A stretch of DNA of 64,000 nt from Antedon mediterranea (Eukaryota > Echinodermata > Crinoidea > Comatulida > Antedonidae): NCBI RefSeq assembly GCF_964355755.1, contig NC_092676.1:2958288-3022287 (forward strand). The letters run 5' to 3'. The notes beneath the pieces are model-generated. The model had not been told where the DNA came from and made no database searches. It worked only from the letters and a program-made list of their open reading frames with translations. Of the stretch, positions 34,406 to 60,849 are shown in pieces (the first letter of the stretch is position 1; every line of letters begins with the position of its first letter). A program made the position numbers and the translations under genes.

Positions 34406-37400
34406 TTAGAAACGACGAGCACGTTTGAAAGGAACATCTTGCTCACGTTCTCCTCCTCCACGACGTCCACCACGCATTTCATGGGGACTACCACCCATTG
34501 GACCGCCCATTGGTCCGCCTGGCCCACCACGCCCAAATCCTTGCTGTGGAGGTTGGTCGAATCGGCTAGCACGCTGTGTTTAGTTCATAGGTCATAGTTC
34601 AAAAGTTTTTAAAAAATCATTCAGTTTTTGGCGTTTACATATAATAATATTCAAAACCAGATGAATTTTCGGCATCATTTGAAGAGAGACGATGATCAAC
34701 AGCAACAATTTCAATGCATGGAGGGAAAGAGAAATTGAACAACATTAGGAATTACAGTACATTATCAATAAAGTTAGTAGTAGACCAGAACAAACTGATT
34801 TTCCTATAGACAAAACAAGCTATTAAAATAAAAAGTGGTTAGAACATGAATTATAATTGTAAAAACTCTATGCGAAAGAACAGCCAGAACTGAATCCCTC
34901 TGGGTAATATGATTATGCTGTGTATTATTTTACAATATATTATAAAACTATGCGTTATGTTTCTAAGGCACAAATTACTATTTCTAGTTACAGAATAATT
35001 GCTATTTAAATGTATACGTTTTATCTACAATTGCCACTACACATTTATATTCAAAACAGAGGATTGCATGTTCAGTAAGAATTTGAAAGCACAATGAAAC
35101 GAAGGAAAAGTTGCCAATACATTTACTAACAGACAAGTTTCCATTGAAATGGCACCATATTTAAAAAAAAAGTCTATGCATTCATAAATTGCATTTTTAT
35201 GTTAAAATCTTATGATCATGTATTCTATTGTGAACTATGTATTATATGTTCTTCGTATTTCAAAGTGATTAGTGACCACTTGGTGTAAAGTAAATAACTT
35301 TGTCCCTAATATCAAATATTGCCCAGATTTTAGCAGCTCATTACAAAGTATTGTGTTAAACAAATTTGTGTCTAATGAGACCATTAACATGAAAAACAAT
35401 TGCTTATTCAACAGCCAAAACTGATAGTTGTTCCAACCTATTACATCCAAAATGCTGTTCAAAGATCAGAATCTACCAACTTGATAAATAGATATAGATA
35501 TTATATTGCACTGTTGAAGGGCTAGTGTTGGCCAAAAGCTCTGCTAACCTTCCTGGCTGTTTTACTTTTATCGTTTTGATTTAGCTTCTCGCTTTTTTTT
35601 GTACATATCTCCATTGTGATAATAATGATAATAATAATGATAAGGCACAAGTGAAAACCATGAAACAAATTAACCTTAAACCTAAATACTACTGATCCAC
35701 TTTGTAGGCACTGATACCCACAGCATTGTCATTTTTTCAGTAAATTGCCTTTGGATTAATTTTATTATATCAGATATAAAATTACTTATTTTCATGGGCT
35801 GGATTCATTTATGCAAGAATATGCAAATGAATAATGACATCACAAAATGTTAAAACTTCTTAAGTATTAAAGCTACTACTACTTGTTAATTATCTCCGTA
35901 TTATGAATTAAAAATCTTTTATCATAAACCAATCCAAAAAACAACTTTATAGTATTACTGTACAAATATTCAAAACATGGAGAGAAAAAATCATTCCGAG
36001 AATAGCAATTTATGGTAAAACCAATGAGTTATGGCATCATTCATTCTGAATATGCAACTTTTGACACTGGTAACCAACATATAGCTAACATAGAATGACA
36101 TGGTTATTTCCAACGAGAAACTTTACTAACAATACGATTCTATAGACTCCGCGTTGTTAAATACCTGTCTTATGATATCGGTAGTTGTGTCTTAAACATG
36201 GCCCTACTGAACTTCAAACAAGAGAGCTTACTCAACAGAACATCGGTGCGAACTGGTGGTAGATAAGCATCTGCTTGTCGTACACTTTGTCGTATTACTG
36301 GTTTAAAGTCTTACTTTTTATAAGTTTTTTTAAGTGAATGCTATATAATATTTAAAAATTATTGGTGTGAATTGGTGGTAGATAAATATACTCGTCGTAC
36401 ACTTTATTGGCTTAAAGTCTCACGATTTAGTTTTTGTTTTAAGGGAATGCTATATTTTAAATTACATTTCTATTTCAATAGGTCATCAGGTGTGGACAGA
36501 ACCACAATAAAAACAAACAGATGTAAACTGAAAAGCCACTATGCGTGATACTCATATCTTAACTACAGAATACAATGATGTGTATGGCAACAACCGTTTC
36601 AAAAGTGCTTCAAATTTGAACTGCAATCACTCTTTGGGTACTGTACGTAATTGTTCTCATCATAACTCAGTGAGTAATCTAAAAATTTGTACAAGTCAGT
36701 ACTATGGCTAAATGTGATTACGAATATTAAAATAACCCCCCCACAAGAAACAGTCTGGCATGTTCTTTATTTTCGCAAGAGATATTAATAAGATAAAAAC
36801 ACCTAATCAGCAATGTTTATGCTATGAACCACAATTTTAACCTATAACAGCTTGACAATAAATTGGTTGCTTAGCACTACAGGTGGTATCCTCCTATCCT
36901 GCAAGACAACCACCCTTAATGGACTCCAACATATTTAGAGTGGCCCGAACAAAATGTTGCAAGTTAGAAAATTAGTTATGTAGAGTAGTACAGTCAGTAC
37001 AACTATATTTGATTTTGAGTTATTCATAAAGCTGATTATCTCTCTTGATGCACCGTCAACATGCTAAGGTGTAACACTGAATACTGTATATAAATAAAAC
37101 AGTGCGCCTTTATAATTTCGCAAGGTTTAGCTTGCACATTTTGAGTTAAGATTTTAGAATAGTAGCACTTTAAATGACGTTTCTAATTCAGTTCATTCTT
37201 GTGTACAATAGTTATAACTTTAGGCCCACTATGCCATATGCGACTATACTTCCAGAAGTCAGTTGTAACACAACAACCAAAACATCTCAACCATACTTTA
37301 TTTCCTTTTGGTGTACCGCAAAATTAACTTTAACAATACACCAGGAGATTCAAAATACTCATTTGAACCTATTATAAATATAACATTTTATCTCTCTCTT

Positions 37401-40400
37401 CTTTCTTAACACCCCCAAATACAGTTTTTTTATAAAGCTAGAATGTTATTAAACATCTTTCACCAACAATTTATAGAAATCACTAAAAAAATAATTTCTA
37501 AATGTTGTCGATTTCATTAAGGCTGTAAAATAAAAGTACCAGCATATGTCCGTTCACAAAGGACATTGTGTAGATCACAGTGACATAAAGGATTTGAAGA
37601 TTCAATGACTAAGCCAGCATAAGAAACAAAGGACAACAGCAATTCATTCTCTTTATAGTACATGCTTTGTTCACTATGCTAAACACACACACCCAGTTCA
37701 TCATCACCATGTCTCACAATACAATTATGTTATGTACATACCGACTGCATTCCACCTGGACCACCCTGCATTCCTGGGCCACCGCCACCCATTCCACGCC
37801 CATTGGGTCCGGCACCAGGTCCGGGACGGCCATTAGGACCGGCTCCAGACATTGCGTTGTTTCCCTGGTTCATTTGCGCCATGGCTTCACCCTTGAAATA
37901 GTATTATTTACCCTTTATCAACAATCTAGCTGAATTTTTTAAATGATATGCATGCACATTTCAAACTTTGCAAATACCACTTCATAAAAAATAACAATTA
38001 ACACAAACAACATGCATTGGTCCAAAAAAAATAATGTACCAGTTTTACATCATCTATCATTAGAGCAAGGGTCACGCTTGTGGATTCTGTTACAAAGTAA
38101 TTAAACCCAGTTGTGGTCAGTCATGAACCAGAATTCCTTTTCCTTAAATGCACACAAGCCAGATGTCCTTTTGAAAAAATTGAACTACAGCCGAGGTATT
38201 TAACTGGTGCCAATATATATGGCTTTAATCTGCAGTTTCCCATTCCTTAACCGAGCCACTAAAATCCCGCAAGAAAATGTTATACACACCATACAAAATA
38301 AACCAAATTATAAAAAGTATCTTTCCCCACGCACACCACCTCCCCAACCCTCTTTCTCCACACACACCACCTCCCCAACACCACAAAAAAAAAAGTTAAC
38401 AAAAAAATCAAGCCTACCATCATCTGCGATTCATTCCTTTGCATCATGCCGTCAGCGGTAACATTCTGGGAACGACGTCTCAAATCTTCTTGTCTTCGCC
38501 GGCTAACCTCTTCCTGGTGCGCTCTCATGGATTCCAATTCCTGGCTGCGCATCTCTGATCGTTGACGGAATTCTTCCTGGCGTCTATGGTAAACATAATT
38601 TGAATATTTTTAGATATGCACAATTATCAATTATCAGAAGTAGGAATATTTAGGTAATGAAATAGTTTTTTTCTAAAATGAACACCTTTTATTATTATAC
38701 AGCAAACAATGTTGCTACAACATTCTTATCAAAACCAACCCCAAAATCTGTTAATTATTACTAACCTCTGCTCAATTTCTTTGAAGTTTTCTTCCATTCT
38801 TCGCAATTCCTCCTGTCTACGTTGTAAATCTAAAATTGTTGGCAATAAAGTAAGAAATAAAATGACTGGTTGAAAAATCAAATGGCAAAAAGACTTTATA
38901 CTGTATAATAATTTTAAATTATCATTTTGATACTTATTTAGTATAAAATTACAAGAAAGGCTCGCGTCCTCCTCTCAACAAAGAAGAAAGTTAAACTCAG
39001 GATTAAACTTAATCAAATTAAATGTAATAAAGCCCCTGGTCCAGATGACCTTCCCCTGGGTGTTTAAAGAGGGTGCTGAGATTCTTAGTGGTCCTTTATG
39101 TGCTATTGCTAACTCAAGTGTTAGAAACTGATGGGTTCCCCAAGAATGGAAACGAGCCAATATTGTCCCAATCCCAAAAGTGTTTCCCCCAAAGTTGGTC
39201 GAAAGTGATCTCCGCCCAATAGCTTTAACTCCTATAATGGCAAAGGTAATTGAGAGCCTAGTGGGCGAAATGATCTGGCACCAAGTTAAGGATAAGATTA
39301 ACCTAAACCAATTTGGTTGTTGTAAAGGTGTTTCTACGGTTGACGCCTTAATTAAATTCCTTAATGTTTGTTTCCTTGCCACTGATGCGGGCGAAGAGGT
39401 TAGAGTTTTATTATTGGATTTTAAAAAGGCCTACGATTTGATCGACCACAACATTCTCTTAAACAAACTCATTGCGCTGGGGGTTAATAGTCACCTGATC
39501 CGATGGGTTAAAGCCTTCCTGTATAACCGACAACAACGTGTTAAAATTGGTGATAGTCTTTCTGAATGGCTATCGCCAAACGGAGGCATACCCCAGGGGT
39601 CGTGGATTGGCCCTATTATGTTTATTATTTTTATCAATGACCTTTTAAATGGTAAACCATGTGTTAAATTTATGGATGATACTACTGTATTCGAAAGGGT
39701 GTCTAAACTGTCCAATAGTAACTTGCAAAATATAGCTAACTCGGCCCTTGCATGGACTCGGCTTAACCATATGACCCTCAATGCTAAAAAAACATGTGAA
39801 TTAATTGTGAGTTGTAAGAAAAACAAGTCGATATTTAATCCTCTAATTATTAATAAATGTAGTGTTAACCAGGTTTGCCGTACTAAGCTCCTTGGAATTA
39901 TTATATGTGACAATTTATCATGGCAACCCCATATTGATTCTTTGATAGCTAAATCAAACTCACGGTTATATTTCCTTAAACAATTGCGCCGGTCAGGTCT
40001 AGACGCCCAAGCCTTATGCTATTTCTATTGTTGTGTTATCAGACCTGTACTAGAATACGCCGTCCCCGTTTGGGGAACGTGCTTAACTAAATTGCAGTCT
40101 GACCAACTGGAAAGTATCCAACGAAGGGCGCTTAGAATCACGTTCCCAGAGCTCAGTTACAACAAAGCAATGGCTCAATGTAATGTGCCTGTGCTATGTG
40201 AACGTCGAACTAGACTGTGCAAGGATTACTATCAGAAACTTAAAAACCCTTCCCATAGACTACATCACCTTCTTCCAAAGCGCCTAAATCTAGATACAAT
40301 TTAAGACAAGTTAAAGAATTTTGCATTCCAAAAATAAAAACGGAACGATCAAAAAATTTTATTGTAAACTTTGGTCTCTTTCACAAGTGGTAAGCATACA

Positions 40401-42559: not shown

Positions 42560-43784
42560 CTTCTTATACAGGAATAACCACCACAAATACTATAAAATAA
42601 AGTTATATTCTGTCAGCAAAAAAGAACTTTAAAAATGGCGTAAGCTTCGACAGCACAGCAGCAGCGTGTAATGCGGTATATAGAGTAGACGCGTTTACCC
42701 ATGCACGAGGAGAGCGTCGGTAAAGCTAATTTGCATAAATTAATTGTCGGGTTTTTATTTAAAGATATAAAATGTACATTAAATACAGAAATAAAATAAG
42801 CAAAACACACAAATAAATATATTATTGATGGTGTAAATATTTTCTAATATTTTAGATATATAAAACAGTTTTATTTTTATAAATAAATAATCCAAATAAA
42901 TACCCTCGTACTCATTATTTTTCGGAATATACAATGAATATAGGAATCATGAATAAACATTTTTTATTGCTGCACGCATGAAAATTTGCATTTGGGGAGC
43001 AAGATCATCGATTGTATCGGCGGCAAGACTTTGTTGTGTTGGCGTATCAGATTTGAACCTATTTTTAAAAACTCGATGAATTTAGAATTGATTTGAACTT
43101 GATTACAAACAACATAACATCAGGGCTTCAGCATGTAAGTTCAATTCCATTTCAGTTATATTAATTGCTCGCACCATGTGTTGACTGTGATCTTGTTAGG
43201 ATTTGTGATTGGCCGTGCTGTATTGAATTGGTACAGTGGATAAGCGCACACACTCAACACTACATACATGAGGTGTAAATATAATGCGCCCACACAATAC
43301 GTACTACTGCTGGCATTGACGTGTACTGACACTTCTTATTTTATGATATGCTGGACATGCAGTCAATGATAATATAAATATTTATACAATTTCAACGTAT
43401 GTAGATTCTATAAATTAGAACAAAGTAAAACATAGAAGGCAGTTTCGAACCATGAAACTGTGTTTCATGCAGTACTGATCAGCCATTTTATCCTCATGAA
43501 TATTCATGATGATAAGTGTCGAGCAGCAGAAAGTTACTTATAATGTCGGAACTTATTTGAAGTAAATATATATTTTTACTTCAAAATAACAAATTGCCTT
43601 GATATATGGTAACAACTGGCAGTGTTAGTTAGTTCATACAGTATTCATAATAAAAACAATTAGATTTCAAAGAATTAGAAGAAATATGAATATGCATGAG
43701 GATTGTCTAATTTACATATTCATTGTAAGCTTTCTTTGGTCTTGTTCAAAATGGCTGCCGTTGATTGGCTTTGTAATCAATTTT

Positions 43785-43900
43785 ATTTTAATTTTATTTT
43801 ATTCATACTCATTCAACAGCGGGAAACCCGCCCCTTACAGAATGGAATAAACTATACCATATAAATATATATAAATCTTAAAACCTAACAATACAAAATA
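43785..43900 (-). repeat. Non-LTR retrotransposon 3' end (minus strand)
   Basis: Read on the minus strand it gives GTAAGGGGCGGGTTTCCCGC, TGTTGAATGAGTATGAATAA and AATAAAATTAAAATT. The GC-rich GCGGGTTTCCCGC hairpin followed by an AATAAA-rich tail is the form of a LINE 3' end. Confidence 0.45.
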
Positions 43901-44465
43901 GTACAATTTTACAGAACTATCATTCTAATTTATTTGTAAAACATCAATACTTTGATAATTAATTTTGATTGGTCAATCATCATTTGGTATGTACTAAATA
44001 CAACAGTATGCATCTAGCCTATTTTAATTTGATTTTAATAAATATTAATAATATATATAATAATAATATTATGTTTTAGTTAGACTATGATGACAGTTTA
44101 TATTATACAATATGCATAATCTGTTAGATAGTTTGAATCCTAATTAATAATTATTTAATTATATTAACCAAATTGTTTGTTATTTAATACAAGTCCCTCC
44201 CACTTCCCCTCTCACTGCATTTTAAAAGTATATAAACATGATAGAAAACTCCCAATAACAAAAGTTGCCTGATGACTGATAAATATTTTATTGTTATTGT
44301 TTTATGTTATTTTGAGTTAAAATTTGGTGAGGAATAGATTAAATTGGTTGTACAGTAAGTAACATGGCAACCTAATTGGCCTTAACCCATTTTTTCACTT
44401 TAGATTAAAAAAGTCATATTCTCTGAAAGTACTGTATATTGACAGAAAAGAAAGACAAATATTTA

Positions 44466-45529
44466 ACGCTGTGGCTAAAGATACGGTACCGTATCCTAAC
44501 TTCCGTTTGCTAAAGGTACGGTAAAATTGCATTACGTCATAATCAGCCGATGGGGTGCTGGTACGTGTGTGACGTCATCGTATAAGGACTTGGGATTTTT
44601 TTTCATATCGCAAAATAAAAACAGTGATCAACCGGCGGCTTAACATTTTCTTTATGCTTCATTTATCGCTATAATAAAATATCCCCGTCGTGTGACAAAA
44701 ACTAAATGTAGCCTAGGCCTACTACGACGGTTATTATTGATAGGCCAAAACATGTTGATTTTAATTCTAGAATACAGAAATTTACCGTTTCAAAAGAGGC
44801 GCATAACCTATAGCCTCGGTATATGAGTATGTTTGCCAGGCTGGGACCAGCTGCATGTGTGCGCTGATTTCTGTGACTAAGACCTGGGGTTAGGCCTATT
44901 GTCTAAATCATAGTATTTGAGGGCCCTTTATTGTCCGCATTTGCTTTTGTTTATGGTCACCATCTGTGAACAAAGTTTATTAAAAAATATAGGCCATTTG
45001 GAATAAAAATAAAACCCTTATACTTATAGTAACTATGGACGAATGAACTAGACGAACCAAAGAATATATATTCTTTGACGCAACACAATTTCCAACATTG
45101 AATTATAATTCATTCCTTTACTTCTAATTTGGCTATTAACATATTTCTACTGTAGAGTGTAGTGTTAAATGTTGTATAATGAAATAATATTTGAGATTGA
45201 GTGCATGTTTTAAACGCTTTATGTAACGTCCACCAACCCATGATCTTGCTCAGTCTATATTACTACAGCATCGACGATTCTGGATTCAACATTGCAAAGT
45301 CTAGCCCCGAGGCTGAGTAACAGAATCATCAGCGCACACATCAATAAAGCCTGGCGCCGTCGATAGGCATTCTCTACAGCAGACACGATGTGAAAAAAAA
45401 ATCCAAAGTCCTTATACGATGACGTCACACACGTACCAGCACCCCATTGGCTGATTATGACGTAATGCAATTTTACCGTACCTTTAGTAGACGGAAGTTG
45501 GATATGGTACCGTATCTTTAGCCACGGTG
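44466..45529. mobile_element. hAT-like non-autonomous transposon with long inverted ends
   Basis: The first ~140 bp (from ACGCTGTGGCTAAAGATACG) recur inverted at 45390-45529 (CGTATCTTTAGCCACGGTG) with only a few mismatches. The arms share GGTGCTGGTACGTGTGTGAC and GTCATCGTATAAGGACTT. AATATTTA flanks the element on both sides (44458-44465, 45530-45537), an 8-bp target duplication diagnostic of the hAT superfamily. The 1064-bp body encodes no transposase. It lies in the presumed 5' intron of the ZMYM gene. Confidence 0.75.
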
Positions 45530-45820
45530 AATATTTAATTTGTCACTTAAATATACAGTAAAGTATTAATTTCAATTTCACATGAATTTATTTGCAGGAA
45601 AAATTTAACACAAAGACGGCTGATAGAACCATGTACTGTAAACTATCTTTAATTCCCTATTACTCGACTTCCACTTGAGCACAGCACAAATATAACCCTC
45701 TGGGACTACACACAGTCATTTGGTAATCATTTATTTATCAACTTCTGTGCTAGTCGTCGGCTACCTAACCAATTGTTTTAATTCAATTTAATTAAAATTT
45801 TTTTTTTTTAAAGTTCAAAG

Positions 45821-48800
45821 ATGGAAGTTGAAGAAAGTGATGACATCATAGGGCAGTCAGTTATAGAAAACGTTGAGAAAGAATCTGATCAGGAAGAGAA
45901 AGAAGATGTTACTGAAAAAATGGAAGTGAATGAAAATGCAGATGTTACTCATGATCCAATTTCTTGTACAGAAGAAGTTGACATGCCAGAGAAAATGGAA
46001 GTTGATGAAAATATGGAAGATCTCTCAAAAGATGCTGCTAGTCCAAGAGAAAAAGATTTTTGTATTTCTGAACCTGGAAAAGAATCATTGGCACCTGAAA
46101 AGAATGAAGAGTTTGAGAGAGATGAAACTGATAAGGATTTGGAGAATAGAAAATCTGGCATTGAATCTGACGAGGCTGTGGAACAAGACCAATCTGGCAT
46201 TGAATCTGACGAGGCTGTGGAACAAGACCAATCTGGCATTGAATCTGACGAGGCTGTGGAACAAGACCAAGAATGTGATGTACATAAAAACACTGACACG
46301 AAAGTCTCTAAAGAAACAGACATTCTTGACACGAAAGCTACTGATGAAATACCAGAACCAGAATCGGCAGCGATTGGCCAAAGTAGAGATGCTATTACTC
46401 CCTCTGATAAAACCATTCCAATCAAAGATGACAATAGAGCTAATAATGTAAAGGAACAATTGGTAGAGGAACAATTGGTTGAAGAACCGAAGGAAAACAA
46501 TTCCAATGTTTATGAAGAAATGGAAAAAGACGATTCTACAGATGAAATTGTGGAAACAGATCTTGATAAAAAATCAGATGCTGATGAAGATGATGAAACA
46601 AATATAAATTCTTTGATAATTAAGCAGGAAGCTATTAGTGACAACTCAAAAGTTTCTGACAACGTAGGGAATGATACAGACATGTCTGAGAAAATGGATG
46701 TGTCTCTTTCAGAGAATAAAGAATCTTGCACAATAGATGCATCAGAGAATAAAGTCAATGATGAGATTGGTTGTGAATCCAGTGATGGTCATTTAAAAGA
46801 AGACAAATGTCTTGTTGAGGAAACCACCAAAGAGGTAACAGCTCATGAAGAATCTGCTGATCTGGTAACCAGAGACCAGGCTACTGAATTGGCAAAAACA
46901 ACAGATCAAGTTGGTGGTGGTAAATCATCTTCTGATAAATTGTCAGATGTTGTTATAAAGAAAGAAAAGTTGGATGAATATTTTGAGCAGCAGTGTTCAA
47001 GCTCAACACTGCAAACTTCAGGAGACGCAAAAGCACAGAATAAGTTGTCTAGCTCGAGCCTACAGACATCTGGAGATGCAAAAGAGCAGAACCAGTCATC
47101 TAGCTCGAACCTACAGACATCTGGAGATGCAAAAGAGCAGAACCAGTCGTCTAGCTCGAACCTACAGACATCTGGAGACGCAAATGAACAGAACAAGTCT
47201 TCTAGCTCAAAAGAGATAAAAGTGGAAGCAGAAGAGACAATAAAGATTAAGGAAGAAAAAGTGGACGAGAAAACAACAAATAAAGGATTAATCATCAGCA
47301 AAATACTGTCTAGATTAGCTACATTTGCCCCAAAGTCACAAATGTCGAAAGAAAAGGTTGGTTTAAAAAAAATTATTTTCAAATTGTTAAAAAGCGTGTT
47401 CATATAAATCATTTTTTTTTGTGACAAATAATTTACAGTATAGAAAGAACTGTCTTGAGGTGGTTTAATAAAAAGAATTATTGTCTTGGTTTTTAGGATA
47501 AAAACAACATTGAAAACGACGAAAGCACATCAGCGTCGGTTGGTAGACATGGTAAAGGAGATCATCCTGAACATGTCAGAAAGTCTGTAACAGCCAGAAA
47601 GATATCAGTGTCTCCAATAAAAAAGGAAATCGAAGTCGATGATGATGTGATAGTCATTAATGACAAATCTACATCTGCAGTAAGTGTTTAAACTTGACTT
47701 TTCCAAAATTTTAGGACAACATTTGGCCACATATTTTTTTTTTCTTCGTAAAATATTTTTTCTTCCTATTATCAGTAAATTATTATAAGTTATAATTATT
47801 ATTATGATAAAATAATGAGATCATTTCTATTCTTCACACCCTCAGAATTTGCAAATAAATTTCTGTTCAAATTGCTGTCAAGTGATTGCTAATGCTGATG
47901 TTTCAAAATGGACGACGAATGTATCGGGGCAAGAAAAACAATTCTGCTCCAACGCGTGTATGAACATCAACCCATATAAATCTCTACTTTGCTCTCTCTG
48001 TAAAAAAGACATGAAAACCGTGCAAGACACGAAGGTGTGCGCCCCAAGTGGACCGAGTGGAAGATTTCTTGAGTTCTGTTCACATGCCTGTGTCATGTCC
48101 TACGAGGAGCGCAAAAATGCTGGCACTCACTGCTACTGCACAGTTTGCTCATCGCTCATAGCGCTTACGGTAAGTGTTCTGATTTCACGTAATAGACTCG
48201 CCTATAGAAACCACTGTATGTATTATAGTCAACCTACCTTTTTTTTTTCAATCAATCAATTTCTCTTTATTCCATAAACAAACAAAACGCATAACAAAAA
48301 AGTAGTAAAACAAATTTTTGATGAAAGCAACCTCTCTTTGCGATTATTTCTGTTACGGCTGCCAAGGAAATCTGAATGATGTATCTAGCTTATCTGAGTA
48401 TAATCGACCTAATAAAAAAAAAAATGATTTGTTGCTTGTGACTGACCAAAAGTTTGACCAAATATAAATTCAACTTTTTTCTTTTTTAAGTTTAAGTTTT
48501 AAGTTTTAATTATTTGTTAATTCAGTTTATTGTGTCTTGTTTACAGCATTACAAACATAGTTTGAGGTTGAAAGGAAGACTCTTCCGTCTTTGCAGCACG
48601 GATTGTCAGAAAGCGTTTATGAAAGACAATCACGTACAGCCGGTAAAAACTTGCTGTGAATGTAAAACTAAATTTACGTTTGAAGGGGTAATGCAAGAAG
48701 TGAAAGGAGTCAAACAAACGTACTGCTCCGAGAAATGCAAATCAAATAACGTATATACAAATTGCCTAATGTGTAAGAAAATAAACGCTATAACATCTTT

Positions 48801-51800
48801 GACAGAAGTCCACGGCAAGAACGGAGAGAAGCACCTTGTATGTAACGGTCTATGCACCTCAAGGTTGATGCATAGGTTGAAAACACCCAATGTGTCTATC
48901 CTTTCAAAATGTCCCGAAAAAAATAATAAAAATTCTGTAACACAGGCACCAACAGAAAGTATACCGGTTACAGCCAATGTTAGTCCCAGCCAACAAAAAT
49001 CCATAATGAAATCTCAAAATGATAAATCAGGCGTGTATCCCACAAATCCTGTTAATTGCAATCATTGTAATACGTATCAAGCTCCGTTGTATCACCTGAC
49101 GATGAGCGATAAATCTGTGCGGAATTTCTGTTCGTATAAGTGCGTGATTGGTTTTCAAATGCAGTTCAACATGCCCCCCGTGACGCTACCTCAGGAAGAG
49201 CTGACTCTGCATTGTAAATATTGTAAGAAGAATTTCAAAGGCAAGCCAATCACACTCAACTGGAAAGATGATATTCACTTTTTCTGTAGTGAAAACTGTT
49301 CAGCTACTTATAAAAAGGTAATTATTTCGGGAAAAGTGAGACCAAACCACAGGAATCAGTGTAGGTGTATGACGGGTTCTTTCTACAATAATGTGCACTA
49401 TTGAAAATACTATATTGTTTGCCAATGTAATTTTCATCTTTACACCAAAAAGAGCCTAGATAGTAGATCCTAAATGGATTGTAATTGATTGTAACTACTG
49501 TGGAGTATCTTGCGTCAGAATGTTGAGTAATTGGTCAGATATTATGCCCTATGCTGACGTAATTTGTACTTTGCACTTAAGTACATTGTACAGTACAAGT
49601 ACATAACTATCAAGCTATTTTTTAAAATATATTCTAAACAATCCTGAGAATTTGTACGTTTAGCGTTTGTGGGAGATGGAAGGTCACTCTGAAGAATTAT
49701 CGGGTTACTTTTGGGATAGTTTGTATGGTAGGGACGCCAGAGTTTGAGTCGACTTTACTGCATTCTACTCAAACATTTTTCTTTTCTTTTTTTACCAGGT
49801 TGCACGTGGTATATTTTGTTAAATACTATACTTTTATATTTTAATAATATTAATATTTGTTTTTTTGCAGACATTTTGTGTAATAATATCGTGCGACAAC
49901 TGTTTGGAAGAACGCATTCATCATTCCACTATCTATTTCTCCGGTAAAGAAAGAAACTTTTGCAGTGAAGGTAATTTATCATGTTTATATTTTTATCATA
50001 TTTCTGATCAGTTAAAAACATGTTTTAACTTATGAATAAAAATTGAAATTGATATAATGATATAATAATCCTATTATTTAATTGGTTTGACTCCATTGGC
50101 TGTAAAAAGTGAGCTTTCTGTTGGACATGGTAGATGAAGAAGCTATTCTATTACATGTCTAGCTTACCTGGATAAACAGACATAGGCCTTATCCCCTTCA
50201 AGGGGAGAACCCGAAAAGTAAAATTTAACAGACTGATGGTTATGGAAAATTCTGCTTTTCACGGTCTGTCAAAAGTATGTTCTATCTTCAATTATTATTA
50301 ATCTTTGTGAATAACAACTATTTTTCCAGGTTGTCACCTTCTGTTTAAACAAAGTTTCACACAAAAGCTGGGCCTTCGCTGGTGTATTTGCGAATATTGC
50401 TCTCAGATTGGACCCACTGCCATTGAGAAGAGAAGTGAAGGACACGCTATTAAATTGTGCTCTAAGAAATGCAGAGAGAAATATGATCAGTGGCAAAAAC
50501 AAGTCACAAAGTAAGTAGTGAGTGTATTCTGTAAAGCACTGTCTACACTATCAAACTTTATGTGACAAACAACTGTGATGTGCCCATATATGGACATGAT
50601 GATGTCATATCTCTATCATATTTGGGTATATCACTACCATATTTGGGTATATCACTACCATATTTGGGTATATCACTACCATATTTGGGCATACCACTAC
50701 CATATTTGGGCATATCACTACCATATTTGGGTATATCACTACCATATTTGGGTATATCACTACCATATTTGGGCATATCACTACCATATTTGGGTATATC
50801 ACTACCATATTTGGGCACATCACACTTTTGTCAAACTAGTTTGATATAGTGTAGACAGAGCTTTAGTTTGTTAAGAATACATAATTTTTGTGTTGCTGTA
50901 TCATGGAACTTTCCTAAGATACTAAATACAGTGTAAGGAGAATTGTATACCAAGTGTAGGATAAAAAAAGAACTTAGTGCTATGACTTAGTGTTGCTTTG
51001 AACCCAGGATTTTTTATGTAAACCATAAACTGCAATGCCACTGCCAATATATACGTCATTTCAAAATTAATATATGCACTTAGGGAACCATTGGCCGTAT
51101 TCACCATTCACACTTCGGCTAGAAAAATATCAGTACGTGAATATAATATGAGGGAAATACTTAAATATTTTTTTAATTAATTGAAATACTTGATATATTT
51201 AAAGGGAAATATCTCACGTAAGTGTGATTAGTGAATATGGCCACAGATCCCATAACTGTCGTGAAAATGAAGTTTTATTAAATCGTATCTGTATCTTCAG
51301 GTGTGAAGGATGCAAGCAACAAGGCCGCCTTTTGAACGAGACGTTTATGTGGCGTGGAGAAGCGAAGAAAGTTTGTAATCAGCTTTGTCTCCTGCTCTTC
51401 TACACCCAACAGAACATTCCAAATATGTTAACAGAAGTTCAACAGAACATTCCGAATACGTCAATGGAACACATTATTCCAAATGGAAAACAACCAGCCA
51501 AAGGTATGCAACATGATTTCTGTTTATTAACAATACAACTGTAAATGCGATTACTAAAGCTCAAACTGACAAAAAACTGTGATGCGCCTTTATATGGACA
51601 TATTTGGGCATATCACTACCATATTTGGGCACATTACACTTTGTTTGTCAAACTAGTTTGATAGTGTAGACAGAGCTTTACACACTTCAATAACACCACC
51701 TTAGCTGGTGGTTAACAAATCACATTTGAAATCTATTTTAGTTGCCCTATATTCTCTCCTTCATTGATTCACCAGATCATTGACATTTCTGTTGTTCACT

Positions 51801-54800
51801 ATCCTTTCTTTCTTTTTCAGTTAATTCAGGTCTTCCAGTAATTTCAAATGTTTTTTCAATTGCTTCTAATCAGAACACTGCAGTCAGAACAAAACCAGGT
51901 TAGTTATTTTTTTAAATGCTATGTAACATGATGCTGTAGAAATCCCACAAAAATATTAAATATAAACAATTCTGAACATTAAATTATAATACTATGTTGC
52001 ACAGTTGTCAAACAATAAGTTGTATAATTGCATACAGATCATGGTCATGTGATTCTGTTGAGGATATTTTATTGATCATGACATGCATTGTTCATGTTTC
52101 ATTGTATTTCTTGGTTTTCATGATTAAATGATGCTTTTTTAATTATATTGTATTTAATAATTTAAGAAATTGTGATTTTTTATCAATTATTTGTGTTTAA
52201 CAATCAGTAGTAAACATTTTGTGTAACGTAGATATAGTCTGAAATGAACAAAGTCCTATATGTCTTTAACTGAACTATAGTACTGTAAATATTCGGGGAT
52301 AGAGGCGTTACTCCCCAATGCTTCTGTCCTCTTGAATATAACCACCTAAAGGCGTGGTGTGAAAATACCGTAAAACTATTTTTTTTAAAGCTTATTATTT
52401 TTCTGAATATTAGCTGTTGTGATGGTTACTAAACAGACACAAATCACTACCACACCTGTGCAGCCTAAGCCTCCAACGTTGCCCACGTTACCAGCACCGA
52501 AACATGTACGCAACAAGATGACAATGTGCAAACCAATACAGCAAACTAAGTCAACGTACTGCAAACCATTATCAATGTCAAAAGAAACAAATACAGGTAA
52601 AATATAGATATATATATAAAGCTTTGTCCCCAAATATGGTAGTAATGTGCCCAAATAGGGTAGTGATGTGCCCAAAAATGGTAGTGATATGCCCAAATAT
52701 GGTAGTGATATGCCCAGATATATGGGTACATCAAATTTTTTTGTCACATAAAGTTTGATAGTGTAGAGAGAACGTAAGGACAGAGCGTAAGACTCTGTCT
52801 GAGATACTAATTTGTAATTCTTACAATAAATCTTATTTTACCAAGATTTTTTTATTTAATTTGGTATTAAATTATTATATAAAATTTCACAATTTATAGA
52901 TGGTGATTGGCGGCCAAAATTAGTGGTTGTTCCTATCCCGGTGCCAATTTACATACCAGTACCCATGCAGATGTATACCACACCAGTACCACATCCAGTT
53001 GGTATACCAACACCGGTACCTGTACCAATGTTTCTTCCAGTAAGTACTAATAATGCTGACAAATTGTTAGCAGCTATCAATGAAATAAAAAAAAGGACAC
53101 CGTCAGACCCGCTTGAGGCTGAGCTGCTTGCGATGGCCGATGCCATTGCTGGAGAGGACGTGGCAGTTATACCGGACGTTGAAGAACCAAGTTTGTTTGA
53201 AATATCGGAAGTTGAAATTCCAGGTTCGTACAATTTGTAGTTTACTCTTATGATTCATTACAAAATTAGATTTCATTTTATGATAATCAATTATAAATAT
53301 AGTAGAGTTTTCCTTTAAACATTAATCCTCTCTGCAATGCTAGCTGTTGTTGTTGTTGTGTCGCTACTCAATGTGGCAGACTACGTTTCTTGCTATGCTT
53401 TCTTTCTCAAAGTTTAAGTTGTACATACCGTTGTATTTAAGTCTGATATTTGATGAGAGAGAAAGCTATGAACACTGTAATTTCCAAATTTATGGATGAA
53501 TAAAGCGATGTCTATGTCTAGCTAATCGTCAGTTTTGACGGCAGCCGAACTTGAACTTCATATCTATAATGAGGAAGTTCATCGTGTGAACAATTGGAAC
53601 GTGCACGCATAATTTCATGTTTTACGTAACTTTACGACTTTACGGTCTACTTTGCCTTACTGAGTTCTTTTTAAGTGAGTCAAATGTAAATGTTGATATT
53701 TTTTTAATAGTTTTTCTTCATTCAAGACTCATTGTATTTAAAAATAATCCTGCTCAATTGGCTAATTTTTACTATTTACATTTTTATTTTTACTATTTAC
53801 ATTTTTATTTTTACTATTTATTTAGTTGAGTTTGCTTCATATTTAGAGTATTTATTGTATCGGTTTTCTGATTCATACTTCATCATCTTTCGTTGCTGTT
53901 GGTTTTGATGAAATAAAATATAAAAAAAAAAAATTTATTACTTAATTAGATGAAGTAGAAAATTCATCAGATGTAGATGAATTACCGCCTGCTCTTGAAC
54001 AACTTCTAGACGAGGGTGAAATTCAAAAATTAGAAGAAGACATCCTTGCACTATCTGTGAAGGCAAACGACCCATTTTCTTTCCTAGAAAAACCTGTAAT
54101 TACTGAAAGTGTCGATGAATCAAGTAAGTGACTCATTAACAACTTTAATTTTCACGATGCTACTATGCACCTTTTGAGTAAAAAGGAACATGTCTGTGTA
54201 GAATGATTTTTTGTAGGTGTGTAGTCACATGGCGTGTTGTAAAGTGAAGTGTCGCTATTATTTTAAAGAGGAAAGTATACAGTGATAAAAGATAGACATT
54301 TTATTGATAACATTAGTGCATGTTCAACCTATCTTTTCCCATTTTAAAGCAAAACAATCATCTTATATTGAATCTAAGTAAAAAATTAGGGGGTGGGGGT
54401 ATGTGTGTTAGGTGAAGGGCTAGGCTAGAGGGTTAGGCTATTGATTTGTAAAGGACTTTTTTATTTTGCAATGTTACTTAAAGTATCACAATATTGTAAA
54501 TATTGATTTTTTTTCCTTCAGATGCGGAGGAATACTGCCAACGTTCAACAAGATCAGGAAGATTACCAAAAAAAAAAAGAAAGCGTACAAACCAGCGATC
54601 ATCCACTCAGAACAAACGTGCACGAGTTGAGAACGACAGTGACGAATACGATCCAAAAACGGATGAAGTTGAGAAAGTAGATGACAAAATAGACCGTCAT
54701 TATTCGATCGGCATTGGTGCTTACAAACTGTGGGTAGCAACTAAAAATGTTGAACTTCAGCTAAAAAAGCAACCCGGTGCTAAACCTTTTTCTTTCAAAC

Positions 54801-57800
54801 CGGACATCTTGACCAACACTTCGGATGAACTTAGCTACACTCTCTGTCATTTTGTCAAAGAAGCACGAAAACCAGACGGAGAGGAGTACCCACCAGCGTT
54901 GCTGTTCTATATTCTTCTAGCTATACAGCATTTTTTATTCAATTCAAGTCATCCTGATAACATCCTTACTGATCTCCCCTTCAAAAGGTTCATGGAATAT
55001 CTAGTGGAGAAGATGAAGACATGGGAACCGGTTTTCAAACCAGACACAAACATTGTCATTAACAGCAAGATCACTGAAGATTTGATGTGGGACTGTAAAC
55101 AACTTGGCGCCCACTCTCCTTATGTGCTTCTCAACACGTTGGTCTATTTCAACACTAAGTTCTTCTGTTTGAAGACGCTTCAGGATCACAAAGATCTTCT
55201 GTTTGGAATGATTTTCAAAGATTGGAAGAAGAGTGGATCGAAGAGCAAATTTGTATGTTTGCGATATTTTCCATCACAGTTGCGGAAAAAACGTAAGGTT
55301 CTTTTTCAAAAAAATTATTTGCAGTTTAATTTATTTATTTTAGTTTTATTTTATTCATTTCAACAGTGCTATGTTATATAAATATAAAAGACAATGCTGA
55401 GGTGAGAGTAACTACATTGTTTGCTGAAATATGTATGATTTTAGTGTGTTAGGGTAGTCACTGTAATTACAAGAATAGATAGATTAAAGGTAAACAAACA
55501 GGTAGTTACGTTGTCCATTAGTTTAGTTTCCACCAACAAGGCAATTTGATTTGACTAATTTGAACATTCACCAGCAATATAAAAATTGTCGCTCGTTATT
55601 AGTAAACTCGCTTGCATTGTGCTTACGTCCTTGCGTTGCATCATAGTGGGAACCAAGCATAAGGATATTTGTTGTTATTAACAGCAATAATACACACAAA
55701 AATAAATCATAAATAACTATTAATTCTATTATATGATGAATTTTGCAATAATAGACCATTAAATATATTTATTGCAATAAAGACCAATATATATATATAT
55801 ATTTATATACAGTTGAAGAGACGACCTGCAAGGTGACGAAAAGAAGTTTGTTAGAGAAGCATTATTTGGAACAGGCAGAGAATCTCGAAGATCCACTACA
55901 CTGCCCTGTCAAACTTTACGAGTTCTATCTTTCAAAATGGCAAGTATACATGTGATAGGGTTTATCGCAAATAGTGTGAGCTATGCATGATGGGAAGGAA
56001 TTGCGAGCAATAGCGCCACCCGTATAATAAAAACTTTATATACTGGTGGTGGTGCTCCCAATTCTGTCCGATCATGCATCACTCACACTATTTGCGATAA
56101 ACCTTATTGGTAGAAGCACAACACAATAAACGCCACACAACACAAAAGATATTGTATAGAGGTCAATTGTAGGAAAAAATGATGAGGAAAACTAACAACA
56201 AAAATGAGAGTATTGGTGGTGATTTGGGGAGGAGGAGGAATAATGAGAGTATTGGTGGTGATTTGGGGGAGGAGTAGGAGGAATAATGAGAGTATTGGTG
56301 GTGATTTGGGGGAGGAGGAGGAGGAATAATGAGAGTATTGGTGGTGATTTGGGGGAGGAGGAGGAGGAATAATGAGAGTATTGGTGGTGATTTGGGGGAG
56401 GAGGAGGAGGAATAATGAGAGTATTGGTGGTGATTTGGGGGAGGAGGAGGAGGAATAATGAGAGTATTGGTGGTGATTTGGGGGAGGAGGAGGAGTAATA
56501 ATGAGAGTATTGGTGGTGATTTGGTGGAGGAGGAGGAGGAATAATGAGAGTATTGGTGGTGATTTGGGGGAGGAGGAGGAGGAATAATGAGAGTATTGGT
56601 GGTGATTTGGTGGAGGAGGAGGAGGAATAATGAGAGTATTGGTGGTGATTTGGGGGAGGAGGAGGAGGAATAATGAGAGTATTGGTGGTGATTTGGGAGG
56701 AGGAGGAATAATGAGAGTATTGGTGGTGATTTGGTGGAGGAGGAGGAGGAATAATGAGAGTATTGGTGGTGATTTGGTGGAGGAGGAGGAGGAATAATGA
56801 GAGTATTGGTGGTGATTTGGGGGAGGAGGAGGAGGAATAATGAGAGTATTGGTGGTGATTTGGTGGAGGAGGAGGAGGAATAATGAGAGTATTGGTGGTG
56901 ATTTGGTGGAGGAGGAGGAGGAATAATGAGAGTATTGGTGGTGATTTGGAGGAGGAGGAGGAGGAATAATGAGAGTATTGGTGGTGATTTGGGGGAGGAG
57001 GAGGAGGAATAATGAGAGTATTGGTGGTGATTTGGAGGAGGAGGAGGAGGAATAATGAGAGTATTGGTGGTGATTTGGGGGAGGAGGAGGAGGAATAATG
57101 AGAGTATTGGTGGTGATTTTGGGGAGGAGGAGGAGGAATAATGAGAGTATTGGTGGTGATTTGGGGGGGGAGGAGGAGGAGAATAATGAGAGTATTGGTG
57201 GTGATTTGGGGGAGGAGGAGGAGGAATAATGAGAGTATTGGTGGTGATTTGGGGGAGGAGGAGGAGGAATAATGAGAGTATTGGTGGTGATTTGGGGGAG
57301 GAGGAGGAGGAATAATGAGAGTATTGTGGTGATTTGGGGAGGAGGAGGAGGAATAATGAGAGTATTGGTGGTGATTTGGGGGAGGAGGAGAATAATGAGA
57401 GTATTGGTGGTGATTTGGGGAGGAGGAGGAGGAATAATGAGAGTATTGGTGGTGATTTGGAGGAGGAGGAGAGGAATAATGAGAGTATTGGTGGCGATTT
57501 NNNNNNNNNNNNNNNNNNNNNNNNNNNNNNNNNNNNNNNNNNNNNNNNNNNNNNNNNNNNNNNNNNNNNNNNNNNNNNNNNNNNNNNNNNNNNNNNNNNN
57601 ATGAGAGTATTGGTGGTGATTTGGAGGAGGAGGAGGAGGAGGAATAATGAGAGTATTGGTGGTGATTTGGGGGAGGAGGAGGAGGAATAATGAGAGTATT
57701 GGTGGTGATTTGGAGGAGGAGAAGGAGGAATAATGAGAGTATTGGTGGTGATTTGGGGAGGAGGAGGAGGGAATAATGAGAGTATTGGTGGTGATTTGGG

Positions 57801-59252
57801 GGAGGAGGAGGAGGAATAATGAGAGTATTGGTGGTGATTTGGGGGAGGAGGGAGGAATAATGAGAGTATTGGTGGTGATTTGGGGAGGAGGAGGAGGAAT
57901 AATGAGAGTATTGGTGGTGATTTGGGGGAGGAGGAGGAGGAATAATGAGAGTATTGGTGGTGATTTGGTGGAGGAGGAGGAGGAATAATGAGAGTATTGG
58001 TGGTGATTTGGTGGAGGAGGAGGAGGAATAATGAGAGTATTGGTGGTGATTTGGTGGAGGAGGAGGAGGAATAATGAGAGTATTGGTGGTGATTTGGTGG
58101 AGGAGGGAGGAGGAATACTGAGAGTATTGGTGGTGATTTGGTGGAGGAGGAGGAGGAATAATGAGAGTATTGGTGGTGATTTGGTGGAGGAGGAGGAGGA
58201 ATAATGAGAGTATTGGTGGTGATTGGGGAGGAGGAGGAGGAATAATGAGAGTATTGGTGGTGATTTGGTGGAGGAGGAGGAGGAATAATGAGAGTATTGG
58301 TGGTGATTTGGAGGATGAGGGAGGAGGAATAATGAGAGTATTGGTGGTGATTTGGTGGAGGAGGAGGAGGAATAATGAGAGTATTGGTGGTGATTTGGGG
58401 GAGGAGGAGGAGGAATAATGAGAGTATTGGTGGTGATTTGGGGGAGGAGGAGGAGGAATAATGAGAGTATTGGTGGTGATTTGGTGGAGGAGGAGGAGGA
58501 GGAATAATGAGAGTATTGGTGGTGATTTGGGGGAGGAGGAGGAGGAGGATAATGAGAGTATTGGTGGTGATTTGGTGGAGGAGGAGGAGGAATAATGAGA
58601 GTATTGGTGGTGATTTGGTGGAGGAGGAGGAGGAATAATGAGAGTATTGGTGGTGATTTGGTGGAGGAGGAGGAGGAATAATGAGAGTATTGGTGGTGAT
58701 TTGGGGGAGGAGGAGGAGGAATAATGAGAGTATTGGTTAACTTAGTATTTGTATTTTGTATTTTGTATTTTGTATATGGATGTTTCTGTTTATTGTATTA
58801 GTATGCATTTATAATGTACACATTATTATCTAACTTGCTTGTTTAAAGGACCCCATTGGAATTAAGCTGTTTCAGCTTTATGGGTCATCCTGGTATTTTT
58901 GTTGTATTTCTTGAGTACCGAATAAAAAACAAACAAACAAATAAACAAATTTGGGACTTTGTGAAAAGATATTAAAATGATATGTTAATTAAAGTCTTTC
59001 CATAAATTAGATTTTCTTTTTATTTACAGCCCAGAGACGGTGAAAAACAAACAGAATTCCTTGTACCTAATTCCGGAAAGAATGTGCATCCCAGACAGTC
59101 CAGTATGGTATTCCAGCTGTATGTTGGATGATGGAACATTGGAGAAGATGTTAGCAAAGGCATTGATGGTCAAAGACGTTCATGAATTCTGGGCAAAGAA
59201 GGAACAGGCCGTGGAAGAAGATGACGATTACTCCCCGGATGAAGATAGTTAA
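45821..59252 (+). CDS. ZMYM4: MYM-type zinc finger protein (ZMYM2/3/4 type)
   Basis: Fourteen coding exons join in frame: 45821-47356, 47497-47679, 47846-48169, 48547-49317, 49871-49970, 50330-50510, 51301-51503, 51821-51898, 52414-52596, 52900-53223, 53950-54123, 54522-55292, 55813-55939 and 59030-59252, giving 1725 aa. ZMYM2-4 are nuclear proteins that bind SUMO and LSD1-type corepressor complexes. Residues 1-570 are acidic, with sumoylation-type sites (IKQE, IKVE, IKEE, IKKE), a SIM-like DDDVIVIND, and 13-aa and 17-aa tandem repeats. About ten MYM fingers (574-1080) follow as CxxC...FCSxxC pairs, then the family's KPxxxTKxTYCKP block, a Val-Pro strip (VVVPIPVPIYIPVP), an NLS (PKKKRKR) and the C-terminal ZMYM/QRICH1 domain (YSIGIGAYKLW to CLRYFP, then LYEFYLSKC and IPDSPVWYSS). 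Its last intron starts with GC. An acceptor precedes the start codon. ZMYM4 stands for the 2/3/4 group. Confidence 0.95.
46154..46270 (+). repeat. 39-bp coding tandem repeat in ZMYM exon 1
   Basis: Three identical 39-bp units encode SGIESDEAVEQDQ three times. The perfect identity at the DNA level points to very recent duplication or gene-conversion homogenisation. Confidence 0.9.
46997..47200 (+). repeat. 51-bp coding tandem repeat in ZMYM exon 1
   Basis: Four 51-bp units encode variants of SSSSNLQTSGDAKEQNQ. The first is the most diverged (STLQTSGDAKAQNK), and the middle ones are nearly identical. The period keeps the frame. Confidence 0.9.
48235..48310 (-). repeat. LINE-like 3' tail in a ZMYM intron (minus strand)
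   Basis: On the minus strand, TATGGAATAAAGAGAAATTG followed by ATTGATTG and an A run looks like a retrotransposon 3' end with a short tail repeat. Confidence 0.4.
49318..49870. other. ZMYM intron 4
   Basis: The intron opens GTAATTATTT and ends TTTTTTTGCAG. The reading frame stays open for about 80 bp past the donor, ending in a stop, so an intron-retained isoform ending in VHY* is conceivable. No repeat is recognised. Confidence 0.5.
50535..50862. mobile_element. MITE family A, copy 8, with internal 21-bp tandem expansion
   Basis: Standard termini (AGCACTGTCTACACTATCAA; TTTGATATAGTGTAGACAGA) enclose about ten tandem copies of TATCACTACCATATTTGGGC with an A or T at the end, where other copies have one to three. 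The 21-bp period creates long spurious frames on both strands. It lies in a ZMYM intron. Confidence 0.9.
51558..51677. mobile_element. MITE family A, copy 9 (ZMYM intron)
   Basis: The left end is truncated (AGCTCAAACTGACAAAAAAC) and the right end is intact (TTGATAGTGTAGACAGAGCT). There is one TATCACTACCATATTTGGGC unit. Confidence 0.7.
52620..52772. mobile_element. MITE family A, copy 10 (ZMYM intron)
   Basis: It begins AGCTTTGTCCCCAAATATGG and ends AAGTTTGATAGTGTAGAGAG. Four CCCAAATATGGTAGTGATAT-type units are present, a smaller expansion than copy 8. It starts 24 bp after an exon. Confidence 0.7.
53330..53525 (+). repeat. LINE-like 3' end in a ZMYM intron
   Basis: TTGTTGTTGTGTCGCTACTC leads to TAATTTCCAAATTTATGGATGAATAAAG (split here by eye into TAATTTCC and ATGGATGAATAAAG) and a short repeat CGATGTCTATGTCTA. 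A gene-like 3'UTR with AATAAA and a 6-bp tail repeat suggests a CR1/L2-type 3' end. Confidence 0.45.
53756..53822 (+). repeat. 22-bp tandem repeat in a ZMYM intron
   Basis: TTTTTACTATTTACATTTTTA is repeated head to tail, slightly under three copies. It is followed by a T-rich segment and a second retroposon-like tail (GATGAAATAAAATATAAAAA) up to about 53940. Confidence 0.6.
55521..55658. mobile_element. MITE family B copy (ZMYM intron)
   Basis: The right half (TTGCATTGTGCTTACGTCCT, then ATAGTGGGAACCAAGC) is a good family B terminus. The left half (AGTTTAGTTTCCACCAACAA) is strongly diverged. Confidence 0.5.
55958..56104. mobile_element. Tc1/mariner-like MITE in the GC-AG intron
   Basis: Left GGGTTTATCGCAAATAGTGT and right ACACTATTTGCGATAAACCT are inverted with one mismatch. 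The pairing continues inward (GAGCTATGCATGAT against ATCATGCATCACTC). TA flanks both sides (55956-55957, 56105-56106). It is 147 bp, starts 18 bp after the splice donor and is not seen elsewhere in the window. Confidence 0.75.
56202..58736 (+). repeat. 43-bp G-rich minisatellite, with an assembly gap
   Basis: About 56 visible units have the form AATAATGAGAGTATTGGTGG, then TGATTTGGGGGAGGAGGAGG (plus AGG). The first half is almost invariant, while the GGA tract varies in length and in GTGG/GGGG/GAGG start. The plus strand is nearly free of C over 2.4 kb. Because the array is in an intron and unit length varies, the open frames through it are not genes. Two arms flank a 100-N gap, so the true length is unknown. 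Confidence 0.97.
57501..57600. other. Assembly gap (100 N)
   Basis: Exactly 100 Ns fall within the minisatellite, between TGGTGGCGATTT and ATGAGAGTATTGG. A round 100 is the usual placeholder for a gap of unknown size, consistent with a collapsed repeat. Confidence 1.
58745..58960 (+). repeat. Non-LTR retrotransposon 3' end in the GC-AG intron
   Basis: GGACCCCATTGGAATTAAGC, TGTTTCAGCTTTATGGGTCA and TCCTGGTATTTTTGTTG form the well-known LINE 3' hairpin region. It is followed by GAATAAAAAACAAACAAACA, an A-rich tail. A (TATTTTG)n stretch lies just upstream. Confidence 0.6.
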
Positions 59253-60849
59253 GAATATCTGTGTTGTGTCTGTTGGATGATAGAAGTTCGTACATTCAAC
59301 TCATTCTTGGTGTACATTAAGCTCTGTCTGCTCTATCAAACTAGTGTAATGTGCCCAAATATGGCAGTGATATATCCAAATACGGTAGTGATATGACATC
59401 AGCATGTCCATATATGGGCACATTAAATTGTTTTCATCACATAAAGTTTGATATTGTAGACAGCGCTTTTCGTTCTAGATGGTGATTTTAGTTATCATTT
59501 GTAAAAAGAAAATATTTTGGCACATTTGGCGTGTCATACTGATACTTGAGTATCAAAACAATGTAAAAAAGACAAAGAAATTGGCAGCAAGTCTGATATC
59601 AATTTTGTATAAAAGTTTGTAGAAGAAGGATAAAAAAAGAGTGTAGAAATTGGATTGAATGCACGGTACAGAGTGGTGAAAAAGATATTTATTAAGAAAT
59701 AGTTCTTCATATATTCTATGGCCAAGTCTTATGAAGATATTCCTTAATGATTTTTCCACTAAGAATATGATAATAGATAATTAATTTGATGAATTATGTA
59801 AATAAGTTTCCTTGTTAGCCATCTTTAATTTATATTTGATTAAGGTAACAAGTAGAGATCAATTAGGTCATTAGCTCCAATATCATTAAATCTATTTTTA
59901 GTAAAGAATGCTTTTTTGGAGATTTCTGTTTCATCGATGACTGATTAACATTTGTGTTTAATAGATTGATCCCTAATCCATGGTTGATTTTACTATAGAA
60001 GTATACTTTACTTCTCCTAATGTATAGGTGCTTGATGGCAATTTGACTTATTGGTATAAGCAGTGTGGCACATATGGCGTGTCATACATAGTTGATAGTA
60101 AAAGATTACATAAAAAAGACTATAGAGGCAAGTTACGTCTTTTATACATTGCCTACCGGTATTATAATTATTATTTCATGATTATACTGTATTTTTTTTA
60201 AACTTGCACAGAAAAATTGTACAAAGTATTTGCGTTGATATTAAGTAGAAAATAGTAACATCTCGTTTGTGTAAACAAAATTAAAAACCAGAATTTCAAA
60301 TCGCTGATGATATTGAATTATTGATTGAACTCCATGATTGAAGAATGTACATTACAGTTCTTTAGAATGCGAGAGTTAAATAAATGATAAAGGCGTCTTC
60401 ACGTTAAACGGTATACGATGCATTCGACGGTAACGTGTATATCTTGAACGCGACGCAAACGACAGATCGGATGACATTTAATCGTTACATCATTACGTTT
60501 CATCCAAATTAAATTGGAACCAAGAAATTACAATATATATTTTCCTAGGTGATGGATAGCGAAAATCGGATTTATGATTTGAAATTTGAGAGTAAATCTT
60601 TATCGGAAACTTAATGGTAATAGCCTACAAGCTTTGGCGTAAACAAAGAAATACTAACGACAATGTCCAAACAAAAGGTGTCGAGTGTTGTCTTTGCTAA
60701 TTGATATTCATGTTTCTTGAGTGGAAGAACGGTGGTAGTTGGTGGCGTGAGATGTTAGTAAGTAGGCCAAGTAATTATAAATGTATTATGTATTACGCCG
60801 AGAGTGTTAAAGAGTCGCTATCCAATCGAGTTTGAACAATACCATGAAA
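59253..60849. other. ZMYM 3' flank to tRNA
   Basis: This holds the ZMYM 3' untranslated region and intergenic sequence. A family A element lies 67 bp after the stop codon (59320-59467), so it is probably transcribed as part of the 3'UTR. A near-repeat 'GGCACATTTGGCGTGTCATAC' (59519) and 'GGCACATATGGCGTGTCATAC' (60065) occurs twice about 550 bp apart. No gene is seen. Confidence 0.5.
59320..59467. mobile_element. MITE family A, copy 11 (ZMYM 3' flank)
   Basis: Termini AGCTCTGTCTGCTCTATCAA and AGTTTGATATTGTAGACAGC are inverted with a few changes. Two CCAAATA(T/C)GG(C/T)AGTGATAT units are inside. Confidence 0.75.

Follow-up and report, generated by a model that had tools for sequence, protein, structure and literature searches.

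Genes of the DBHS family (SFPQ, NONO and PSPC1) and of the WOC/ZMYM family are linked in vertebrates. In the syntenic clusters described by Kojima and Jurka (2011; PMC3212892), ZMYM4 is accompanied by SFPQ, ZMYM3 by NONO and ZMYM2 by PSPC1, in agreement with the human linkages SFPQ/ZMYM4, NONO/ZMYM3 and PSPC1/ZMYM2 that a sequence-only reading of the present locus had put forward. According to the available parts of that paper, two genome duplications gave rise to the ohnologues ZMYM2, ZMYM3 and ZMYM4 from WOC, SFPQ is among the spliceosomal components that ZMYM2 is reported to bind, and the DBHS and ZMYM families are proposed to have likely co-evolved. WOC-related sequence is placed there in several invertebrate phyla, as a gene or as gene fragments, and in the same parts of the paper a DBHS neighbour is not mentioned. 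Both the vertebrate linkage and the inference of its origin by duplication have been in print since 2011 (PMC3212892) and are not new. Genes sfpq and zmym4 are also named among those around the fish short-form granulin genes in a supplementary legend of PMC4527844, which leaves their adjacency unstated. Many ancestral bidirectional promoters are described as having come apart in vertebrates in the portion of PMC6292497 that was available. The main texts of PMC8851819, PMC6292497 and PMC3815023 name neither ZMYM nor SFPQ. Among the literature matches listed there was no report of a DBHS-ZMYM pair in an invertebrate, in a search that did not extend to the principal catalogue of old gene pairs in animals.

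We take the human pairs to be divergent too, with distances of tens of kb and with ZMYM5 lying between PSPC1 and ZMYM2. In Drosophila, nonA (on X) and woc (on 3R) are presumably unlinked, so that the DBHS-WOC linkage is not universal. Ancient microsyntenic gene pairs of animals are reportedly the subject of work by Irimia in 2012.

The window analyzed here, that is, the whole stretch of 64,000 nucleotides at C7:2958288-3022287, comes from an assembly whose 18 contigs total 354,431,138 bases; its chromosome, C7, accounts for 8.6% of them (30,548,870 bases). Adjacency of the two genes was examined in one genome, the window's own. The sequence-only reading had described one DBHS gene on the minus strand and one ZMYM gene on the plus strand, divergent and with start codons 3.26 kb apart. 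Both genes could be stitched complete, with the ends that had been attributed to them, and their start codons, at 42559 for DBHS and 45821 for ZMYM, were measured to be 3,262 bp apart. The two models were built by hand, with exons joined at splice sites, and are predictions; neither contains an internal stop, and the frame is kept throughout both. Assuming 20,000 genes, the chance of finding this named pair as immediate divergent neighbours would be about 2.5e-5, a figure that serves as a guide only, since the pair was chosen after being seen. Coordinates are collected in Table 1.

Table 1. Features of the DBHS-ZMYM locus and of its surroundings, numbered along the window except where another stretch is indicated
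Feature	Position	Strand	Details
DBHS gene (SFPQ/NONO/PSPC1 family)	34406..42559	minus	stitched model, 8 coding exons, 579 aa
DBHS coding exons	42559-41963, 41768-41467, 41200-41105, 40803-40607, 38829-38766, 38583-38418, 37891-37742, 34573-34406	minus	stitched model
LINE-type reverse transcriptase ORF	39132..40304	plus, antisense in DBHS intron 4	RVT_1, E 9.4e-25
Region between start codons, possible site of the promoter(s) of the two genes	42560..45820		sequence
Splice-donor match, 8/9 positions (GT at 43135)	43132..43140	plus	donor scans; only such plus-strand match in the gap
Inverted-repeat transposon, 1,063 bp	44467..45529		arms 44471-44603 and 45394-45525
WOC/ZMYM gene	45821..59252	plus	stitched model, 14 coding exons, 1725 aa
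WOC/ZMYM coding exons	45821-47356, 47497-47679, 47846-48169, 48547-49317, 49871-49970, 50330-50510, 51301-51503, 51821-51898, 52414-52596, 52900-53223, 53950-54123, 54522-55292, 55813-55939, 59030-59252	plus	stitched model
Crypton-like ORF, 458 residues	1062-2438 of stretch C7:741800-745300	minus	weak DUF3504, QRICH1 and Phage_integrase matches
TENT5-type nucleotidyltransferase	5153-6376		only match in the assembly
Transketolase pyrimidine-binding domain exon, read as BCKDHB	15464-15730		Pfam; another exon, at about 17 kb, seen by eye
Homocysteine methyltransferase, read as BHMT	19188-21383, three ORFs		two above cut-off, one below; fourth ORF 18018-18329 by eye
Tctex-1 protein	23802-24374		Pfam
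DegT-type aminotransferase	62370 on		Pfam

All seven introns of the DBHS gene are of the GT-AG type, and the predicted protein ends in KRARRF, with the stop codon ending at 34406. Pfam searches of the stitched protein identified RRM_1 in two stretches and NOPS at residues 304-355 of 579, and its best match among solved structures was SFPQ (E 2.2e-110), in an alignment that extends through residue 451. The order RRM1-RRM2-NOPS-coiled coil is thus shared with the DBHS family (SFPQ, NONO, PSPC1 and C. elegans NONO-1), from which the window protein differs in having an N-terminus rich in Gly, with three copies of a 30-bp repeat, seen in the DNA as a coding minisatellite (30 bp x3) at 42223-42312. 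When the NOPS profile was run across the 354-Mb assembly, two matches were obtained, both of them exons of the window gene. When viral contigs of IMG/VR were scanned with the DBHS exon that covers the end of RRM1 plus RRM2, 25 pattern matches were obtained and no relative was confirmed.

The position of this protein relative to the vertebrate paralogues was assessed by pairwise identity over 246 columns, taking structure chains 7uj1, 9glc and 5ifn as vertebrate SFPQ, NONO and PSPC1. The window core was identical to SFPQ at 149 positions (61%), to NONO at 140 (57%) and to PSPC1 at 153 (62%), whereas the paralogues were 72-76% identical to one another (SFPQ-NONO, 178; SFPQ-PSPC1, 187; NONO-PSPC1, 181 of the 246). 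A second count, over 261 residues, gave 163 identities between the window protein and SFPQ, 154 with NONO, and 193 between SFPQ and NONO. Being 57-62% identical to paralogues that are 72-76% identical among themselves, the window DBHS protein appears to have branched before their duplication; it would lie outside the three vertebrate DBHS proteins, as is expected of a pre-duplication copy.

The stitched ZMYM protein, whose stop codon ends at 59252, gave Pfam matches to zf-FCS, QRICH1 and DUF3504. The C-terminal DUF3504 domain, of Crypton origin, was matched over positions 3-161 of 162 (E 1.3e-51), and an array of MYM/FCS fingers was recognized by zf-FCS (E 1.8e-16), of which two stretches passed on their own; ten finger-like motifs starting with CxxC were found by motif listing, more than Pfam scored. 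Introns are GT-AG in 12 of 13, the last one being GC-AG. MYM fingers, QRICH1 and DUF3504 are common to the window protein and the WOC/ZMYM2/3/4 family. Relative to that family, the window gene appears to be distinguished by an N-terminal exon that is long and acidic and carries two coding minisatellites, and by its GC-AG final intron. The minisatellites lie in the N-terminal part (39 bp x3.1 at 46152-46270 and 51 bp x3.7 at 47021-47208). The final intron (55940-59029) consists mostly of a G-rich 43-bp minisatellite of about 59 copies (56203-58737), with a 100-N gap inside it at 57501-57600, and GC skew reaches 0.75 over 56001-60000. The window ZMYM protein also contains a Pro/Val-rich stretch, which we take to be a feature of ZMYM2-4 as well.

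Across the assembly, the DUF3504 profile gave four matches, three in the window ZMYM gene and one at C7:743305-743484. The latter falls in an ORF of 458 residues located 2.27 Mb from ZMYM on the same chromosome, whose DUF3504, QRICH1 and Phage_integrase scores are each slightly below the curated cut-offs, and which likely encodes a Crypton-type recombinase. The zf-FCS profile produced a single match even though the window ZMYM gene carries several fingers; profile searches of the assembly therefore overlook weak copies, and absence elsewhere is unproven. With the proviso that weak matches can be missed, the assembly appears to hold one locus per family, apart from the Crypton-like ORF. A single DBHS locus speaks against a vertebrate genome. 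COX1, which matched in 8 of 14 controls, had no match in the assembly, leaving no mitochondrial contig in evidence; GH6, used as a tunicate marker, had no match there and none in the controls.

The region between the start codons had been described as having nothing in it. This held insofar as no tRNA or Rfam match was found in 42560-45820 and none of the five ORFs of at least 60 aa within the gap matched Pfam, but it did not hold for mobile DNA, as an inverted-repeat transposon of 1,063 bp is present. The transposon lies between two copies (44458-44466 and 45530-45538) of a 9-bp target duplication, AATATTTAA, and its end motif occurs in the window at the two ends of the element only. The duplication is the mark of its insertion, which took place after the pair had formed; subtracting the element leaves a start-codon spacing of about 2.2 kb. 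Each of its arms carries the palindrome TGACGTCA. As a separate observation, the end motif GTCTACACTATCAAAC occurs at 16 places of the window, from 1987 to 59461 (at most two mismatches; 0.04 expected), often as inverted pairs, and its copies lie partly around arrays of a 21-bp unit, as in a family of short elements carrying tandem repeats.

Signals that could relate to transcription were sought in the gap. The splice-donor match at 43135 could possibly mark the end of a 5'-untranslated exon of ZMYM, in which case the start of the ZMYM transcript would be no more than several hundred bases away from the start codon of DBHS. A T-rich stretch ending in AAAG precedes the first ZMYM coding exon, and this AAAG is a possible, though poor, splice acceptor. 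Next to the DBHS start, over 42600-42799, the CpG observed/expected ratio reached 1.74, versus 0.70 for the whole window; bins within the transposon gave 1.43, 1.57 and 1.24. Eleven motif patterns were scored in the gap against 500 shuffles. Four NF-Y-like sites, one of them inside the transposon, were found versus 0.83 expected by shuffling (fraction 0.010) and 1.78 by window density, and a long YY1-like pattern was at a fraction of 0.024 of shuffles; both excesses were lost once the 11 tests were allowed for. CRE palindromes (fraction 0.000 of the 500 shuffles) and ETS-like sites (0.042) are both located in the transposon arms. The CpG and motif counts of the gap are weak and were not counted as support for a shared promoter.

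The chromosomal context was examined with genes that we take to be human neighbours of the DBHS-ZMYM pairs, namely TAF1 and MED12 (Xq13) and NCDN (1p34). In searches of the assembly, all three were located on another chromosome, C5 (NCDN at 9.75 Mb, MED12 at 12.2 Mb and TAF1 at 26.0 Mb), and none on C7. The NCDN match partly carries stop codons, and one exon-sized MED12 match has a second copy at 12183795. By itself, the probability of finding none of the three on C7 is 0.76, which is unremarkable. Their presence together on C5 suggests an old linkage group that, in this genome, is without the DBHS-ZMYM pair. This placement cuts both ways. On the one hand it weakens, and partly opposes, the notion of one ancestral block kept whole; on the other, the pair stands out as a persisting unit: it persisted while the human-type context did not, so that its preservation is not due to a generally conserved chromosome neighbourhood. 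FOXO was added as another candidate from those human arms; it gave no match in the assembly, but the same search matched no control either and is uninformative. Within the window, the nearness of the TENT5-type and BCKDHB genes is a lead only: TENT5A and BCKDHB lie together on human 6q14, and that arm is related to 1p, 13q and X. An ORF at L005 6828-7235 (minus) resembles part of an NADPH oxidase by eye and had no Pfam match.

Common descent is, with high probability, the best explanation of the pair. By the time of the vertebrate whole-genome duplications, DBHS and WOC/ZMYM would already have stood side by side in divergent orientation, the window holding the unduplicated orthologues; the block would then have been duplicated, and each of three surviving copies would have retained one gene of each family, giving SFPQ-ZMYM4, NONO-ZMYM3 and PSPC1-ZMYM2. 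That the pair predates those duplications had been proposed from the sequence alone, and the proposal is supported by the position of DBHS outside the paralogues, by the presence of one locus per family and by the published clusters, as far as PMC3212892 was available. Beyond what was observed (gene identity, orientation, spacing, locus number and the outgroup position of DBHS), we infer that the linkage was inherited and not convergent. Were the adjacency seen here and that of the vertebrate ancestor of separate origin, a chromosomal context unlike the human one for three of three genes with a match would be readily accommodated; such convergence is nevertheless highly improbable, given the small chance calculated above for the named divergent pair and an orientation that is also that of the human pairs. 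As a whole, the earlier interpretation is partly supported.

What kept the genes together is a different matter. The linkage may be inherited but without function, left over because gene order changes slowly and not maintained by shared regulation, and we regard this as evenly balanced between right and wrong. It is in keeping with the tolerance of a transposon between the genes, with the gap being devoid of a convincing excess of promoter motifs after allowing for the number of patterns scored, and with the human spacing of tens of kb, which would oppose a shared core promoter today. Conservation of the linkage in three vertebrate copies (available parts of PMC3212892) speaks against a neutral relic, as does the location of TAF1, NCDN and MED12 elsewhere, the pair having outlasted at least some larger-scale change. 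Alternatively, an ancestral bidirectional or shared cis-regulatory region could have led to the pair being kept by selection for co-expression of two nuclear regulators. The head-to-head arrangement and the short distance between start codons, particularly when the transposon is discounted, are compatible with this, as are the donor at 43135, the only 8/9 plus-strand match, which would bring a 5' exon of ZMYM close to the DBHS start, the CpG ratio beside that start, and the reported binding of ZMYM2 to SFPQ (in the parts of PMC3212892 available). However, the donor and motif scans are weak, bins of the transposon reach similar CpG ratios and the acceptor before the ZMYM start is poor. Shared regulation is, on the sequence, plausible, although our confidence in it stays below an even level; nothing computed separates it from a neutral relic.

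Returning to common descent, the linkage would have been kept at least partly by means of a once-shared promoter region, later parted in vertebrates in the way described in the available part of PMC6292497, a step that we put forward tentatively. It is conceivable, though rather doubtful, that DBHS and WOC/ZMYM constituted a pre-vertebrate regulatory unit in which one control region served two proteins acting together in the nucleus, a unit that would be unduplicated here; in vertebrates it would have been copied, three of the pairs would have survived, and their members would later have moved away from each other. The locus opens a direct test of shared control of two reportedly interacting nuclear families since before vertebrates, and of its release by genome duplication.

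Compared with described systems, the window pair resembles the animal gene pairs with ancestral bidirectional promoters or ancient microsynteny dealt with in the available part of PMC6292497 in being arranged 5' to 5' and old, such pairs having often parted after the vertebrate duplications; it differs from them in being defined here by its start codons. With the vertebrate clusters of PMC3212892, as described in the parts of that paper available, it shares the linkage of the same two families. There, duplication of ZMYM from a single WOC-like ancestor was inferred, whereas here there is one locus per family and the two genes are immediate divergent neighbours with 3.26 kb between start codons. 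Among the literature matches listed, and to the extent that these sources were available, the linkage was found in print only as vertebrate synteny clusters, the adjacent and unduplicated version being that of the window. The pair is not a new kind of thing; it is useful as an unduplicated outgroup for a linkage already known in vertebrates.
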